Assembly (NCBI GenBank): GCA_030729785.1
Contig: JANQWS010000032.1
Span: 1-64,000 of the forward strand
From: Algoriphagus sp.
GTDB taxonomy: Bacteria > Bacteroidota > Bacteroidia > Cytophagales > Cyclobacteriaceae
Length of the DNA stretch: 64,000 nucleotides
Reading direction: 5' to 3'
Positions 22,526-55,886 of this stretch are shown in pieces (positions within the stretch are counted from its first letter, which is position 1; each line of letters starts with the position of its first letter). Both the position numbers and the translations under genes were made by a program. The notes below the pieces were generated by a model. It did no database searches. It saw nothing but the letters and a program-made list of their open reading frames with translations, and was not told the origin of the DNA.

Positions 22526-22656
22526 GATTAGCCGCACTTTCACTACCAACGGAATAAAATAAGTTTTGTAGTTCATTTGATTGGGTGGTGCTTTGTTAGC
22601 GATTATCCGCAACACATAAAACTTCCCGTATCTATTGTGTGAGATTGCGGAGGTCA
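22526..22656 (+). repeat. Degenerate interspersed element, copy R7
   Basis: A decayed copy of the TGATTATCCGC element. The left box is GATTAGCCGC (22526-22535), followed by TTTCACTACCAACGGAATAAAATAAG and a TTCATTTGATTGGG arm. The internal box is a perfect GATTATCCGC (22601-22610), and the right end has lost part of its sequence (GATTGCGGAGGTC, 22643-22655). The 22435-22882 gap also holds the terminator at 22491 and the rpsA promoter at 22766; nothing else is seen in it. Confidence 0.7.
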
Positions 22657-41774: not shown

Positions 41775-41919
41775 GATTATCCGTTTTCAGGTTACTATCC
41801 AAAGAAAATTAGGTTTGAAGTTCAATTAGGTGAGCCGTGAGCCGTTGACGGTGGTCTTTGAATAATTATCCGCACTGGAGAATTGGCATGTTTAGTCACT
41901 AGTATAATTGCGGATAATT
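41775..41919 (+). repeat. Interspersed palindromic element, copy R2
   Basis: A 145-bp copy from GATTATCCG (41775) to GCGGATAATT (41910-41919). It has the arm AGGTTTGAAGTTCAATTAGGTGAGC, a short core (GTGAGCCGTTGACGGTGG), the internal box ATTATCCGC and the TCACTAGTATAATTGCGG right arm. It ends 19 bp before the histidine kinase ATG, so it forms most of that gene's upstream region. Confidence 0.85.
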
Positions 41920-48933: not shown

Positions 48934-49076
48934 TTATCCGCAATCATGCCAGTATTCCCAGCGGAGTACTAAAACCTGCGGATAATCGTCCATAGGCGAC
49001 GGCCCACAGACCACAGTTCTCCTGATTGAACTATAACCTTATTTTATTCCGTAACTGGTGAAAAAGCGGATAATCA
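48931..49076 (-). repeat. Interspersed palindromic element, copy R4
   Basis: A 146-bp copy in reverse orientation with perfect ends TGATTATCCGC (48931-48941) and GCGGATAATCA (49066-49076). Three boxes are intact: left, internal (GCGGATAATCG, 48978-48988) and right. The core has GTCCATAGGCGACGGCCC. The first three bases are the stop codon of the 64-aa gene. Confidence 0.88.
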
Positions 49077-51143: not shown

Positions 51144-51325
51144 TGATAATCCGCTTTGTCATCAGTAACCAAAAAAATAAGGTTTGAAGTTCATTTTAAT
51201 GAGCTGTGGTCTGTGGACTGCCTGTAGGCCGTGGCCTATCGTCTGCTTGCAGACTGCGGTCTGTCGACGATTATCCGCAGTAATTCAAACAATTTTTTAG
51301 CGACTGGTAAGATTGCGGATAATCA
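51144..51325 (+). repeat. Interspersed palindromic element, copy R5 (longest)
   Basis: The longest copy, 182 bp, with ends TGATAATCCGC and GCGGATAATCA. Its core is expanded (about 51204-51268) and contains perfect mini-hairpins TAGGCC-GT-GGCCTA (51225-51238) and GTCTGC-TT-GCAGAC (51241-51254). The internal box GATTATCCGC is intact. It fills most of the intergenic space between divergent genes; the rest of 51027-51435 shows only weak promoter-like sequence near 51045. Confidence 0.88.
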
Positions 51326-51435: not shown

Positions 51436-52473
51436 ATGAATTCACGAAGAAGATTTATACAAAATACGAGCATTATAGGATTGGCTATGACTGTACAACC
51501 CAATTTACCTGTTTACGCCTCTCAGAGAAAAGTACTGGGACATGGCGATTTCACCTATACGATAGATCCGAGTTGGGGAAATTTAGATCCTGCCAAGGTA
51601 CCGGTGGTCAACTGCCACGAAATGGTGATGGATCGAAAAGGAAGAATGATTCTGTTGACAGACGAACCCAAAAACAATGTCATTATTTACAGTCAATCGG
51701 GCAAGTTGCTGACTACTTGGACACTGGGGCTTCCCGCAGCTCATGGCTTGACTTTAGTAGATGAAGGGGATGCAGAATACCTTTGGGTGGTGGACAATGG
51801 TGGAAGGGTGCTCAAAACCACTCTTGACGGCAAGGTAGTTGCTGAACTAGCCTCACCCATAGCAGAAGGTATCTATTCGGAAAAAATGCGTTGGGTGCCT
51901 ACAGAAACGACTGTAGCGCCCAATGGGGACTTGTATGTAGCAGATGGTTACGGCTCCCAATTTTTTCTCCAGTACGATAGTCGAGGAAATTTTATCCGAA
52001 AATTTGGAGGAGCGGGAAATGAAGATGGGCAGTTCAGTACTGCGCATGGGATTGCAGTAGATCAGCGTGGGGGCGAACCTACCTTGATTTGTACGTCAAG
52101 GGGACATAATTCATTTAAGCGATTTACGCTGGATGGTACCTACCTCGAAACGATTTTTCTTCCTGGGGCTTTCGTATGTCGGCCCGTGATTCATGGAGAT
52201 AATCTGTATGCAGGGGTGTGCTGGTCTAGGCTTCGGTATTTAGAGCAAACGGATAACTCTGGGTTTGTGACTATTCTGAACAAAGAAAACCGAGTAGTTT
52301 CCAATCCTGGAGGTACAGAACCCTACTATCGAGACGGAAATTTGCAGGTCATGCTTCAAGAGGAGGCTGTATTTAAGCATTGTCACGATGTGTGCATTGA
52401 CCAAGATGAAAACATCTATGTGTGCCAGTGGAATGCTGGAAAGTCTTATCCGATTAAATTAACGCGGATTTGA
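51436..52473 (+). CDS. NHL-repeat six-bladed propeller protein, exported
   Basis: A 345-aa protein from ATG 51436 (MNSRRRFIQNTSIIGLAMTV). A longer frame would begin with TTG inside repeat R5 and is rejected. The N-terminus is a Tat-like export signal (SRRRF then a weak hydrophobic stretch ending PVYA). The body is made of NHL/propeller blades, for example VAPNGDLYVADGYGSQF, GNFIRKFGGAGNEDGQF, GIAVDQRGGEPTLICTS and CIDQDENIYVCQW. It resembles the peptidyl-alpha-hydroxyglycine-lyase-like NHL family; activity is not certain. It is flanked by R5 and R6 in the same orientation. Confidence 0.8.
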   Translation: MNSRRRFIQNTSIIGLAMTVQPNLPVYASQRKVLGHGDFTYTIDPSWGNLDPAKVPVVNCHEMVMDRKGRMILLTDEPKNNVIIYSQSGKLLTTWTLGLPAAHGLTLVDEGDAEYLWVVDNGGRVLKTTLDGKVVAELASPIAEGIYSEKMRWVPTETTVAPNGDLYVADGYGSQFFLQYDSRGNFIRKFGGAGNEDGQFSTAHGIAVDQRGGEPTLICTSRGHNSFKRFTLDGTYLETIFLPGAFVCRPVIHGDNLYAGVCWSRLRYLEQTDNSGFVTILNKENRVVSNPGGTEPYYRDGNLQVMLQEEAVFKHCHDVCIDQDENIYVCQWNAGKSYPIKLTRI

Positions 52474-52844: not shown

Positions 52845-52917
52845 AGTGGATATCTATAAATTAATAGTGGATAACCTGTTCTTTTACACCTATTTACAGG
52901 GTAAAAATTGTGGAGAA
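52845..52917 (-). other. Cluster of three DnaA-box-like 9-mers
   Basis: Compared with TGTGGATAA, AGTGGATAT (52845-52853) matches 7 of 9, AGTGGATAA (52866-52874) 8 of 9, and TGTGGAGAA (52909-52917) 8 of 9. All lie in the same orientation, spaced 21 and 43 bp, about whole helical turns. A very AT-rich tract follows (52920-52960). It could be a replication-control or DnaA-titration site, or chance in AT-rich DNA; no dnaA or dnaN gene is near. Confidence 0.3.
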
Positions 52918-52989
52918 GTTTTTGTAAAAATAATTGGAATAATTTTTTTTATACACCAACTTTAATTCATCAAGTAAGAGAAAAAAAGA

Positions 52990-53590
52990 CCGAAAGTAAG
53001 ATTTCGGAATGTAGATTGAAAGTTTGAGATCGGGCACAAAGGGGGACCTACTTTAGGGGAAGTCTCTGAGACAGGAAACTGCAGAAATGCCAAAAAACGA
53101 TGGGCTTGAATTTGGGAATTTCTTCGGAAAGAATCAAAGTTCCATGCAAGAAGGATTGGGAAAGAAATTTCTTGATTGAGAGGGGTAACCCCAGAATTGT
53201 GCAAAGTGGATTAATCGGCACAGCTGAACCTTCGGGGAAGGTTGTACAAACATCGGGCACAAAGGAATTGCTCCTTAATTGGGGTGGTTTGCAACGGGCA
53301 GCCGCAGAAGTGCTACAACTGATCGGCCTGGGAGTCTATCTTTAGGATAGCTTCGGGAGTTCCACCATGAAGGAGCACTTGCTTGCACGTGTTTGAAAGG
53401 GGCAACCACAGAAATGGAAAGGAATCTCTACAAAAACAGGACTAGTCCGTATGGGCGGCATCAATTTTCATTTTGGACCTGGGCAACTAGGAAAAGTCTT
53501 TACCTGTAGCTTGAGGGAGGCAGTGAACCACGGGAATCTGTCGACCAAACGGGAAGCTTTCGCAAGAAATGCTTCCCGTTTCTGTTTTTT
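52990..53590 (+). ncRNA. Candidate large structured non-coding RNA (family not recognised)
   Basis: About 600 bp with no credible protein but dense hairpins on the plus strand: CCGAAA/TTTCGG (52990-53007); a CAG-GAAA-CTG loop (53072-53081); TTTC-TTCG-GAAA (53119-53130, an extra-stable UUCG loop); GGGG-TAA-CCCC (53182-53192); AACCTTC-GGG-GAAGGTT (53227-53243); CTATC/GATAG (53336-53350); and the terminal hairpin (53547-53581). The 14-mer ATCGGGCACAAAGG occurs at 53029 and 53252, and both copies are followed 52 nt later by GCAGAAnTGC. A related CACAGAAATGG occurs near 53408. GC content is higher than in the flanking spacer. The 5' end is uncertain (52960-53030). I do not see tmRNA, RNase P, 6S or SRP landmarks. 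Confidence 0.7.
53547..53590 (+). terminator. Intrinsic terminator of the candidate RNA
   Basis: AAACGGGAAGC and GCTTCCCGTTT pair over 11 bp; the inner TTTC-GCAA-GAAA adds four pairs and a GNRA loop, with one bulged T (53570). A TCTGTTTTTT tail follows. The T-run is on the plus side only, so transcription is rightward. Confidence 0.9.
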
Positions 53591-53614: not shown

Positions 53615-55063
53615 ATGAAAAATCTAGTTGCTAGTGTCGTTTATGTTGGCTTAGTCTGCGGACTAATGTCCTTTCAGGTGAATTCACCCGATTTGCCAGT
53701 TCCCAATAAACCCAACGTAATTTTTATTTTAGCGGATGACCTAGGCTATGGTGATTTGGGCTTTCTAGGGCAAAAACACATTGAAACACCTAATTTAGAC
53801 TTGCTAGCGGCTAGGGGGATGCTATTTTCCAATCACTATGCTGGTGCTCCTGTATGTGCCCCTTCACGCTCAGCGCTGCTTACAGGTTTGCATACCGGCC
53901 ATACCCCCATACGGGGAAATTTTGAGGTTCAGCCTGAAGGGCAGTATCCCATGCCAGATACCTTGCTCACCTTGGGAAAAATTTTTCAGCAAGCTGGTTA
54001 CCGCACCGCTGCCTTTGGTAAATGGGGATTGGGCTTTGTAGGGACCACGGGAGATCCTTCAAATCAAGGTTTCGATCATTTTTTTGGTTACAACTGCCAA
54101 CGCTATGCGCATCGCTACTATCCTGCTTATCTCTGGGAAAATCAAGAGCAGGTTCCGCTACTTGGAAATGACTGGACTACAAAAACCACTTTTGCACCAG
54201 ACCTCATCCATCAGAAGAGTTTGGAATTTATGGAGGCCAACCGGCACCAGCCCTTTTTCTTATTTCTGCCTCTAGTGATGCCCCACGCAGAATTGGCAGT
54301 GCCTGAAGACGAGGTCTTTCAATACTATCGTACAAAATTTGGGGAGGAGTTCCCACACATTGCTCCTCCGGGAGGGGATTATGGCCCAGAAATGGTTATT
54401 CCCGGTTACCAGTCTCAACCCTATCCACGGGCAACATTTGCAGCCATGGTGGCTCGAATCGATCGCTATGTAGGCGACATCATGAATAAATTGGAAGCCT
54501 TAGGCATTTCCGAAAACACGCTCCTGGTTTTTACTTCAGACAATGGTGCGCATCGTGAAGGAGGGGCAGACCCGGAGTTTTTTGATTCGAATGGGCCATT
54601 TAGAGGGTATAAAAGAGATGTATATGAGGGAGGGATTCATGTGCCTCTCGTGGTTTCTTGGCCGTCCAAAATTCCAGCAGGAAGCCATTCCACACAGATT
54701 TCGGCTTTTTGGGATTGGCTGCCTACCCTCACGGAATTATTAGTTCAATCAACGACCACCGAGATAGATGGAGTGTCTTTCTTGCCGACGCTATTGGGAA
54801 CTGGAACTCAAAAACAAGCCGATTACCTGTATTGGGAATTTCACGAATCAGGAGGGCGACAGGCACTGCTGCAGGGAGAATGGAAATTGGTTAAGTATCA
54901 GGTGAAAGATCCAAGCAAAACAAAAGTGGAATTGTTTCACCTTACCACTGATCCTGAGGAACGGACTAATGTAGCCCTAGATCATCCCAAACGTCTGGCA
55001 GAACTCGAAATACTGATGCAAAAAGCCCATCGTCCCAATCCGGTCTTTCGCCAATTGGACTAA
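53615..55063 (+). CDS. Type I (formylglycine) sulfatase, exported
   Basis: A 482-aa arylsulfatase A-type enzyme with a signal peptide (1-22). It removes sulfate esters, probably from algal or host polysaccharides. The active-site motif is CAPSRSALLTG with C81, to be converted to formylglycine; metal ligands are DD (41-42) and DNGAH (about 309-313). FGKWGLGF and HRE-type residues follow the family. The C-terminus ends in VFRQLD, and that tail sequence reappears 843 bp downstream (see repeats). It starts 25 bp after the RNA terminator, so it likely has its own promoter. No sulfatase-maturation gene is nearby. Confidence 0.92.
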   Translation: MKNLVASVVYVGLVCGLMSFQVNSPDLPVPNKPNVIFILADDLGYGDLGFLGQKHIETPNLDLLAARGMLFSNHYAGAPVCAPSRSALLTGLHTGHTPIRGNFEVQPEGQYPMPDTLLTLGKIFQQAGYRTAAFGKWGLGFVGTTGDPSNQGFDHFFGYNCQRYAHRYYPAYLWENQEQVPLLGNDWTTKTTFAPDLIHQKSLEFMEANRHQPFFLFLPLVMPHAELAVPEDEVFQYYRTKFGEEFPHIAPPGGDYGPEMVIPGYQSQPYPRATFAAMVARIDRYVGDIMNKLEALGISENTLLVFTSDNGAHREGGADPEFFDSNGPFRGYKRDVYEGGIHVPLVVSWPSKIPAGSHSTQISAFWDWLPTLTELLVQSTTTEIDGVSFLPTLLGTGTQKQADYLYWEFHESGGRQALLQGEWKLVKYQVKDPSKTKVELFHLTTDPEERTNVALDHPKRLAELEILMQKAHRPNPVFRQLD

Positions 55064-55221: not shown

Positions 55222-55746
55222 CTATTCTCCAGCGGAAAGCTTCCTTTCAGCAATGATAACTTTTCTTAATTTGCCATCAACCACCAGGGCATCATAATAT
55301 TGATTCACTTTTTCATCCTGTCCATCAATTGAAAGTGTAACGACGGCCGCACCAGTTACCCATTGTTGAACCTCTCCATTTTTTCCTTTAAAACTACTTG
55401 CTATGATAAATTTAATATCCCATCTCGGATTAACAGTGGCAAACATTGGGAGTAAAACCTTAAAATGATTATCCGTTCCCTCTGCAACATTCCCATCGGA
55501 CATTAAAAGTTGAAACAATTTTGGATCCTGTAGGCTACGAATGGTAGCAGTATCTCTTTCATTGTGTGCGATAAGTATTTTCTCTAAGATTTTTACCGAA
55601 GACGAATCGCCAGCATAAACAGCGGTCTTCGTACCGTCTTCTGTAGTATCATAGCCAAGGACTTCTTTTTCAATAGTAGTAGATTTTTGCTCGGCACAAG
55701 CAAATAAAGTACTTGCAGTGACTGCAATCAAAATTAATTTTTTCAT
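55222..55746 (-). CDS. Lipoprotein with ketosteroid-isomerase-like (NTF2) domain
   Basis: A 174-aa lipoprotein (lipobox LFACA, C17). Residues 52-170 look like an NTF2/SnoaL-type domain: KILEKILIAHNERDTATIRSLQ, FKVLLPMFATVNPRWDIKFIIAS, and NQYYDALVVDGKLRKVIIAERK. No catalytic pair is certain. It lies inside an 843-bp segment flanked by copies of the sulfatase 3' end, so it may be a mobile or inserted gene. It is on the opposite strand to the sulfatase. Confidence 0.7.
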   Translation of the reverse strand: MKKLILIAVTASTLFACAEQKSTTIEKEVLGYDTTEDGTKTAVYAGDSSSVKILEKILIAHNERDTATIRSLQDPKLFQLLMSDGNVAEGTDNHFKVLLPMFATVNPRWDIKFIIASSFKGKNGEVQQWVTGAAVVTLSIDGQDEKVNQYYDALVVDGKLRKVIIAERKLSAGE

Positions 55747-55886
55747 AGTTTTTTTGGGTTGAATTTTGTTGGTACTAATCGTTCCGTTTTTTAGTGTGGG
55801 CTCTGGACTCCACCAACAAACAATGTATCATTTAAAAAATGATAACTACTATTTTGAAAATTTCATTTCAAATTGAACAAATCCCA

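Follow-up and report, generated by a model that had tools for sequence, protein, structure and literature searches.

Between a gene for an NHL/6-bladed-propeller protein (ending at 52473) and a sulfatase gene (starting at 53615), the Algoriphagus contig analyzed here over 64,000 nucleotides (the window) carries a stretch rich in short hairpins, and the question is whether this stretch encodes an RNA and, if so, of what kind. The initial annotation had read it as a stand-alone, ornate non-coding RNA, possibly a new one, and that reading is supported by the lack of an Rfam match over cut-off, strong covariation, a conserved promoter and terminator, and neighboring genes that shift from locus to locus. 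Although no transcript data are at hand, it is well supported by sequence comparison that 52970–53590 of the forward strand, about 620 nt from promoter to terminator with an inferred start, codes for an RNA. It seems to be a bacterial RNA of a new type, with a function yet to be identified.

Comparative evidence for a structured RNA

Covariation, proposed beforehand as a check on the RNA reading, is present in an alignment of 27 sequences from loci of the genus, in which 176 pairs in 35 helices were scored. Changes on both sides affect 98 of the 176 pairs (60.7 in shuffles), doubly changed cells number 567 (175 in shuffles), and 93.4% of the cells are paired (82.8% in shuffles); none of 500 shuffles matched the observed value of any of these three measures, and sliding the partner by 1–3 columns lowers the pairing to 33–49%. 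The tested structure was the RNAalifold output on the same 27-sequence alignment, which favours that structure, and the reverse strand also scores with RNAalifold, but worse (−199 vs −272). Since the single-sequence folding energy is ordinary (z −1.48, with one of 20 shuffles folding as well), the hairpins alone are no proof of an RNA; the proof lies in the covariation.

A conserved protein frame, which would have refuted the RNA reading, is not found among the four open reading frames that were followed: they are open in only 3, 6, 4, and 4 of the 27 sequences (the window included), and the longest stop-free run per sequence varies from 60 to 185 codons (185 in L014) with changing strands and frames. 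A protein-coding gene is thus ruled out for these four frames by their lack of conservation, in line with the earlier impression that no credible gene exists here.

The RNA is closed by a terminal helix, in which its first 11 nt pair with a strand of the 3′ domain (Table 1); besides the 5′ hairpin, four modules, and the 3′ domain, linking hairpins are also present inside this helix. The terminal hexamer was compared in 33 diverse members, in which the terminal helix spans 153 to 545 nt: standard pairs make up 191 of the 198, and five of the six positions show at least two standard pair types (forms include UCAAGU/GCUUGA, CUGAAC/GUUCAG, and CCAAUC/GAUUGG). Because the hexamer anchors were picked by eye, this count is supportive and not a test. 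In the 3′ hairpin (helix 33), all nine outer pairs have changed on both sides. The terminator, described initially as a 15-bp stem with a GCAA loop and a U-run, was found exactly so (53547–53561 paired with 53566–53581) and is kept in relatives; the sulfatase gene starts about 25 nt past its T-run.

Table 1 Features of the RNA gene and its upstream region (positions in the window)
Feature	Position	Strand	Remarks
Upstream region with DnaA-box-like sites	52845–52917	+	AGTGGATAT at 52845, AGTGGATAA at 52866, TGTGGAGAA at 52909
Inferred promoter, TTG (−33) and CAACTTTA (−7)	52934–52964	+	From sequence; compare Bacteroidota TAnnTTTG
RNA gene	52970–53590	+	5′ strand of terminal helix (inferred start) to terminator T-run
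Terminal helix, 5′ strand, UCAAGUAAGAG	52970–52980	+	Pairs with 53504–53514; helix 1
5′ hairpin	52991–53006	+	Helix 3; 3 of 5 pairs changed on both sides, 100% of cells paired
Module M1 (three-way junction)	53033–53091	+	R2 68.3 bits; helices 7–9
Module M2	53146–53200	+	R2 56.8 bits; helices 14–17
Module M3	53257–53313	+	R2 63.5 bits; helices 20–22
Module M4	53365–53417	+	R2 57.7 bits; helices 27–30
3′ domain	53478–53546	+	CCUGGGCAACUAGG hairpin, terminal-helix 3′ strand 53504–53514, 3′ hairpin 53515–53546; model R3; helices 1, 32, 33
Intrinsic terminator, C-GCAA-G loop, T-run	53547–53590	+	Helix 35; 97.3% of cells paired

A repeated three-way junction

The repeat noticed initially, ATCGGGCACAAAGG at 53029 and 53252 followed exactly 52 nt on by GCAGAANTGC (53081 and 53304), is real: a search for the combined pattern that tolerates up to three mismatches returns just these two places, and 100 dinucleotide shuffles yield no match. 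The element that follows is likewise present, as GATGGGCTTG (53099) after the first copy and GATCGGCCTG (53321) after the second, but the form shared by the two is GATnGGnYTG and not GATnGGnCTG, and the third copy suspected near 53408 corresponds to CACAGAAATGG at 53407. The idea of a duplicated module with a trace of a third nevertheless understated the repetition, as the repeat unit is a three-way junction of 53–59 nt that occurs in four copies. Matches of the module model (R2), whose training set includes the four window modules, start at 53030, 53142, 53253, and 53361, each with E 1.6e-13 or better, and the next-best place in the window has E 0.62.

In each module, P1 is short (GCAY/RUGC), P2 differs in length and opens with an invariant G.U (43 of 43 modules), and P3 has three pairs and is usually capped by a GNRA loop, which is found in 20, 25, 12, and 26 of the 27 sequences for M1 to M4, respectively; the P3 loop of M3 is ACCA in eight sequences, and P3 of this module (helix 22) is invariant in the 27-sequence alignment. 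The module helices covary, with double changes at 11 of 12 pairs (43 modules from 12 loci), and the junction strands RAAG, UGARA, and CAGAA mostly hardly vary, ten of the 13 junction columns having 93–100% identity and the remaining three 84, 58, and 51%. The UGARA/CAGAA strands might recall a k-turn, but this reading was dropped since one of the G.A positions is often C or U in M3. Mean identity is 67% between modules that occupy the same position in different loci (210 comparisons) and 52% between different modules within one RNA (60 comparisons), and therefore the four copies are old and each has been maintained. A decayed M2 is seen in one locus (L032).

Distribution, size classes, and genomic setting

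Seventy-two genomes of the window's genus, its own included, were sampled. By DNA search, 50 of them contain the element in whole or in part (E ≤ 0.001), and models of the 5′ domain plus M1 (R1) and of the 3′ domain (R3) match 55 and 57, respectively, at E ≤ 0.01, so that 59 genomes are matched by one or the other, one of them (G072) marginally. Neither model matches the other 13, among them the single-contig genomes G009, G021, and G073; unless the models overlooked diverged copies, not every member of the genus requires the RNA. Among 291 genomes of the order, R1 matches 19 and R3 matches 56 at E ≤ 0.01; at E ≤ 1e-4, R3 matches 31, all in the window's family or in a second family, f8, where the nine R3-matched genomes measure 1.2–1.6 Mb and eight of them have two R3 matches. 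Judged from these matches, the RNA is also present in other Cyclobacteriaceae and in f8. In a sample of the phylum, R3 matches 21 of 395 genomes at E ≤ 0.01 and six at E ≤ 1e-4, five of the six in the window's family; no membership is claimed for the weak R3 matches in other orders.

Named records with the conserved 5′ pattern are mostly Algoriphagus, with others in Cyclobacterium, Rhodonellum, Pleomorphovibrio, Mariniradius, Cecembia, Aquiflexum, and Pararhodonellum, and 17 of the 20 pattern-scan loci not labelled Algoriphagus match R3 at E < 1e-4. Three R3-matching metagenome-assembled genomes, labelled Bacteroidales (L185), Bacteroidetes (L199), and Flavobacteriales (L202), with labels unchecked, have a weak R1 match or none and contain the same ends around quite different interiors; among members with different interiors outside Algoriphagus, the terminal helix spans about 150 to 490 nt. 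The otherwise different interiors of L185 (~560 nt) and L199 (~510 nt) have a CAGATCGTAAGACCTGG element in common. An RNA-like stretch in family f10 (L098 of G114) is matched by R1 and contains a module-like AAAGG ... CUGAAACGGUUAGCCGCAAAAA (R2 18.7 bits, E 0.02); its ends do not fit the family, and its membership is doubtful. A phage or plasmid element was ruled out, as plasmid and phage collections yielded nothing but one 30-nt match (E 0.7), and two pattern hits in viral contigs both lie inside open reading frames.

Both ends could be located in 53 loci of the genus, which fall into discrete lengths of about 612, 395, and 293 nt, with 33 loci at 604–619 nt (one of these long loci, in G020, measures 576 nt, being truncated by the contig end), three at 393–397 nt, and 17 at 289–306 nt. 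Module numbers, obtained with R2 for part of these loci and for relatives, are four in the window, L085, and L086; three above threshold in L087; two in L034, L089, and L091; and one in L029, L030, L031, L033, L094–L097, L101, and L247–L249. No module at E ≤ 1 was recognized by R2 in L099, L100, L107, and L230–L234, among others, and binding by the module therefore cannot be the function of the whole family.

Module number differs at the orthologous locus, too. A one-module RNA precedes the same sulfatase gene in G015 (L033/L191) and in G024 (L247), and in the latter it lies directly 5′ of that gene, followed by the GNAT, TMEM220, and NIPSNAP genes as in the window. At other loci, the next gene encodes TMEM220, an opposing GNAT protein, or, as judged by eye, a GMC-type oxidoreductase, and at some the sulfatase gene lies upstream of the RNA; neighbors thus switch side or identity, and no constant downstream gene, as would be expected for a riboswitch or cis-acting leader, is found among the Algoriphagus loci compared. 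The finding of the same neighbors on other sides of the RNA, or of other genes next to it, argues that the gene acts on its own. Two genomes with the ~615-nt RNA also contain paralogues (L230 at G086:C83 and L231 at G025:C29) that have the same ends with another interior, in G086 as two tandem copies. In other genomes of the genus, three members ~520 nt long and with a different interior (L232, L233, and L234) are each found some 2 kb downstream from a propeller gene homologous to that of the window; they may occupy the orthologous place with the interior exchanged.

The inferred promoter was compared with the Bacteroidota consensus TAnnTTTG, as given in PMC9723704. Of 57 dereplicated loci that were selected with a single 5′ pattern and exclude f8, 52 have the TTG element and 56 a TTTG/TTTA-like box, loosely defined. 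Farther upstream, sites like TGTGGATAA, counted as TGTKGRWAA with at most one mismatch within −140 to −30, number 3.4 per locus on average, compared with 0.26 in mononucleotide shuffles, and at least two such DnaA-box-like sites are present in 53 of the 57 loci, with preferred offsets of −126, −105, −73, and −61, that is, about two, three, and one helical turns apart. The upstream consensus had been read by eye from loci of both families and was then counted in those loci. Of the ten f8 copies, eight to nine have a pair at −72/−61 or −73/−62 and otherwise one site (−72 only in L154), and the paralogues L230 and L231 as well as L247, the one-module copy beside the sulfatase gene, have no DnaA-box-like site. 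The window's own upstream region contains two sites by the TGTKGRWAA criterion, and in the window alone such sites are no denser upstream of the RNA than at some other places. Upstream of RNase P RNA (six of six genomes) and of the tRNA-Cys of the window, no site was found on the strand of the RNA and zero to two on the other strand, so the sites are not general to stable-RNA promoters. That DnaA binds these phased sites is a guess from their sequence, and binding is unproven. The distance to dnaA is 37 kb in G010 and G034, 61 and 86 kb in G024, 0.7 Mb in G315, 1.2 Mb in G083, and ~2 Mb in G033, and an origin element was ruled out because dnaA is not consistently nearby.

Known RNA families and the possible function

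A high-scoring Rfam hit would have refuted the suspected novelty; none was obtained. At gathering scores, no Rfam 15 family matches the window RNA, and with E up to 10 the only overlapping match is RefA9 on the other strand (21.7 bits, cut-off 49). The same search of 15 relatives' loci gave no match over cut-off within the RNA, the only one being a tRNA outside it in L101; below threshold, L20_leader overlaps the 3′ end of the RNA in L095 (26.3 bits, cut-off 58.7) and PrrB_RsmZ falls in the doubtful locus L098 (17.4 bits, cut-off 44). The landmarks of RNase P, tmRNA, and 6S RNA had not been recognized in the initial annotation either, and the searches agree: RF00010 has one match over cut-off, located elsewhere, in each of six genomes (the window genome included), ARAGORN finds only tRNA-Cys in the window, and the 6S models RF00013 and RF01685 give no match over cut-off in ten and eight genomes, respectively, the single match of RF01685 in G277 (E 0.6) being below cut-off. 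The 6S searches were made without a Bacteroidota positive control, and RF01685 responded only in Methanocaldococcus, below cut-off; hence absence of a 6S RNA from these genomes is not shown.

Two further features of the window were noted outside the RNA gene. At 55764–55818 (−), the DUF805 RNA motif (RF03081) gives a weak match (30.5 bits against a cut-off of 51.1; E 0.017). It lies just upstream of a gene at 55222–55746 (−) whose start looks lipoprotein-like by eye and which lacks a Pfam match, and it may be a cis-regulatory element. REP-like imperfect palindromes, GATTATCCGCA ... TGCGGATAATC with arms ~43 nt apart, are found at 155–215, 41866–41917, 48934–48985, and 51271–51322, with half sites near 22603, 48494, and 52794.

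Rfam 15 includes the families of OLE, ROOL, and GOLLD, which the Algoriphagus RNA resembles in being large, non-coding, intricately structured, and strongly covarying, and from which it differs in having no Rfam 15 match and a repeated junction module of variable number. CsrB and RsmZ are protein-sequestering RNAs with repeated GGA in hairpin loops; the present RNA would work alike in that one molecule carries several copies of a binding element and copy number sets the capacity, whereas the element is a three-way junction here and a GGA hairpin loop there. From Bacteroidota, Bacteroidales-1, Flavo-1, and 6S-Flavo of Rfam share the phylum with it and have no match in the window region or in the 15 relatives' loci at E up to 10. 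In Weinberg 2010 (PMC2864571), other Bacteroidetes motifs are described, as are STAXI and further tandem-repeat motifs in which one structural motif is likewise found two to three times per RNA; STAXI, often located near genes for DNA-handling proteins, is a pseudoknot repeat, unlike the three-way junctions enclosed here by paired ends. The main texts of two recent surveys, PMC11109978 and PMC8632094, contain no mention of Bacteroid-, Algoriphagus, Cyclobacter-, Flavobacter-, or Cytophag-, and searches restricted to openly licensed papers turned up no description of this RNA. In kind, it is a stand-alone structured RNA; new are the family itself and the way in which the number of junction modules varies while the frame stays constant.

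As to function, near-invariant junction strands set in covarying helices suggest that the junctions are read by something, and their repetition in steps of one, two, and four suggests that the number matters. Taken together with the paired ends, the RNA's own promoter and terminator, and the lack of a constant target gene, these features are explained most economically by a multivalent scaffold or decoy for one partner. We tentatively favor, while regarding it as somewhat short of an even bet, a stand-alone chromosomal RNA of this type, of which transcript, partner, and phenotype are unseen. In the predicted mechanism, the RNA, produced from its own promoter and terminator, would act in trans; the terminal helix, joining the 5′ and 3′ ends, may protect it, and each of the modules inside that frame would bind one copy of the same partner, so that capacity would be set by module number. 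The partner is assumed to be a protein more likely than a metabolite, without binding data, and the step from junction to partner to function remains an inference. Transcription may be activated from the helically phased DnaA-box-like sites, and activation driven by these boxes would couple the level of the RNA to replication or growth.

The chief rival is an RNA-only scaffold, which would self-assemble into a defined oligomer like OLE, ROOL, and GOLLD, with the modules and their GNRA loops as tertiary contacts. The large, ornate, and stand-alone nature of the RNA, the frequent GNRA loops on P3, and the precedent of those RNAs (PMC12286853) would fit such an assembly; however, M3 has the loop in fewer than half of the sequences, so that contact is not needed, and members with one to four modules would have to form very different particles. 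With multimer formation here only inferred by analogy, we consider this unlikely, though it deserves to be kept in mind. Somewhat less plausible still are free-standing tandem ligand aptamers acting as a metabolite sponge, or a trans-acting small RNA that works by base pairing: a small-molecule aptamer would also show near-invariant junction strands, and the RNA has its own terminator, but no downstream gene is kept for regulation in cis, and metabolite sponges that stand free in this manner are not known to us.

An analogue of 6S RNA in this clade, which would bind RNA polymerase, deserves mention because no 6S model gave a match over cut-off in these genomes and the post may thus be vacant; paired ends and a low copy number per genome, commonly one or two, are shared with 6S RNA. 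A 6S RNA is, however, a rod with a large central bubble, whereas the consensus folds of the Algoriphagus RNA are multibranched with four junction modules and no rod, the f8 members of 229–235 nt also fold into several branches (11 sequences), and member lengths range from ~230 to ~620 nt, all of which makes this analogy improbable to a marked degree. A cis-regulatory leader of the sulfatase gene at 53615 can draw on the short distance to the gene start and on the one-module homologues before the same gene in G015 and G024; in view of the RNA's own terminator and of the loci with a different next gene or with the sulfatase upstream, it has very little to recommend it. That the locus has no function and is merely a decayed gene, or hairpins strung together by chance, would agree with the ordinary folding energy and with the unmatched genomes of the genus, and is close to untenable given the covariation, the matches in 59 of 72 genomes, and the conserved promoter and terminator.

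Beyond the scaffold or decoy favored for the four-module RNA, a bolder proposal, which we regard as speculative and rather doubtful, is that these RNAs constitute a Bacteroidota-wide class in which a constant frame (terminal helix, 3′ hairpin, and terminator) holds interchangeable interiors and phased DnaA-type boxes provide replication-linked dosage, each RNA serving as a programmable scaffold that would recruit a dedicated RNA-binding protein. To our knowledge, few global RNA chaperones are known in Bacteroidota. Only a few large structured bacterial RNAs lack a known function, and several of these proved to form complexes that had not been expected (PMC12286853). Natural variants that have one or four junctions, yet share the locus and the adjoining sulfatase gene, make the stoichiometry and function of a repeated RNA module directly comparable, and variants are found in named strains such as Algoriphagus mannitolivorans DSM 15301 and Algoriphagus sp. 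CAU 1675. For the Cytophagales, where no 6S match over cut-off was obtained, the conserved RNA together with its conserved phased promoter array offers an entry to RNA regulation.
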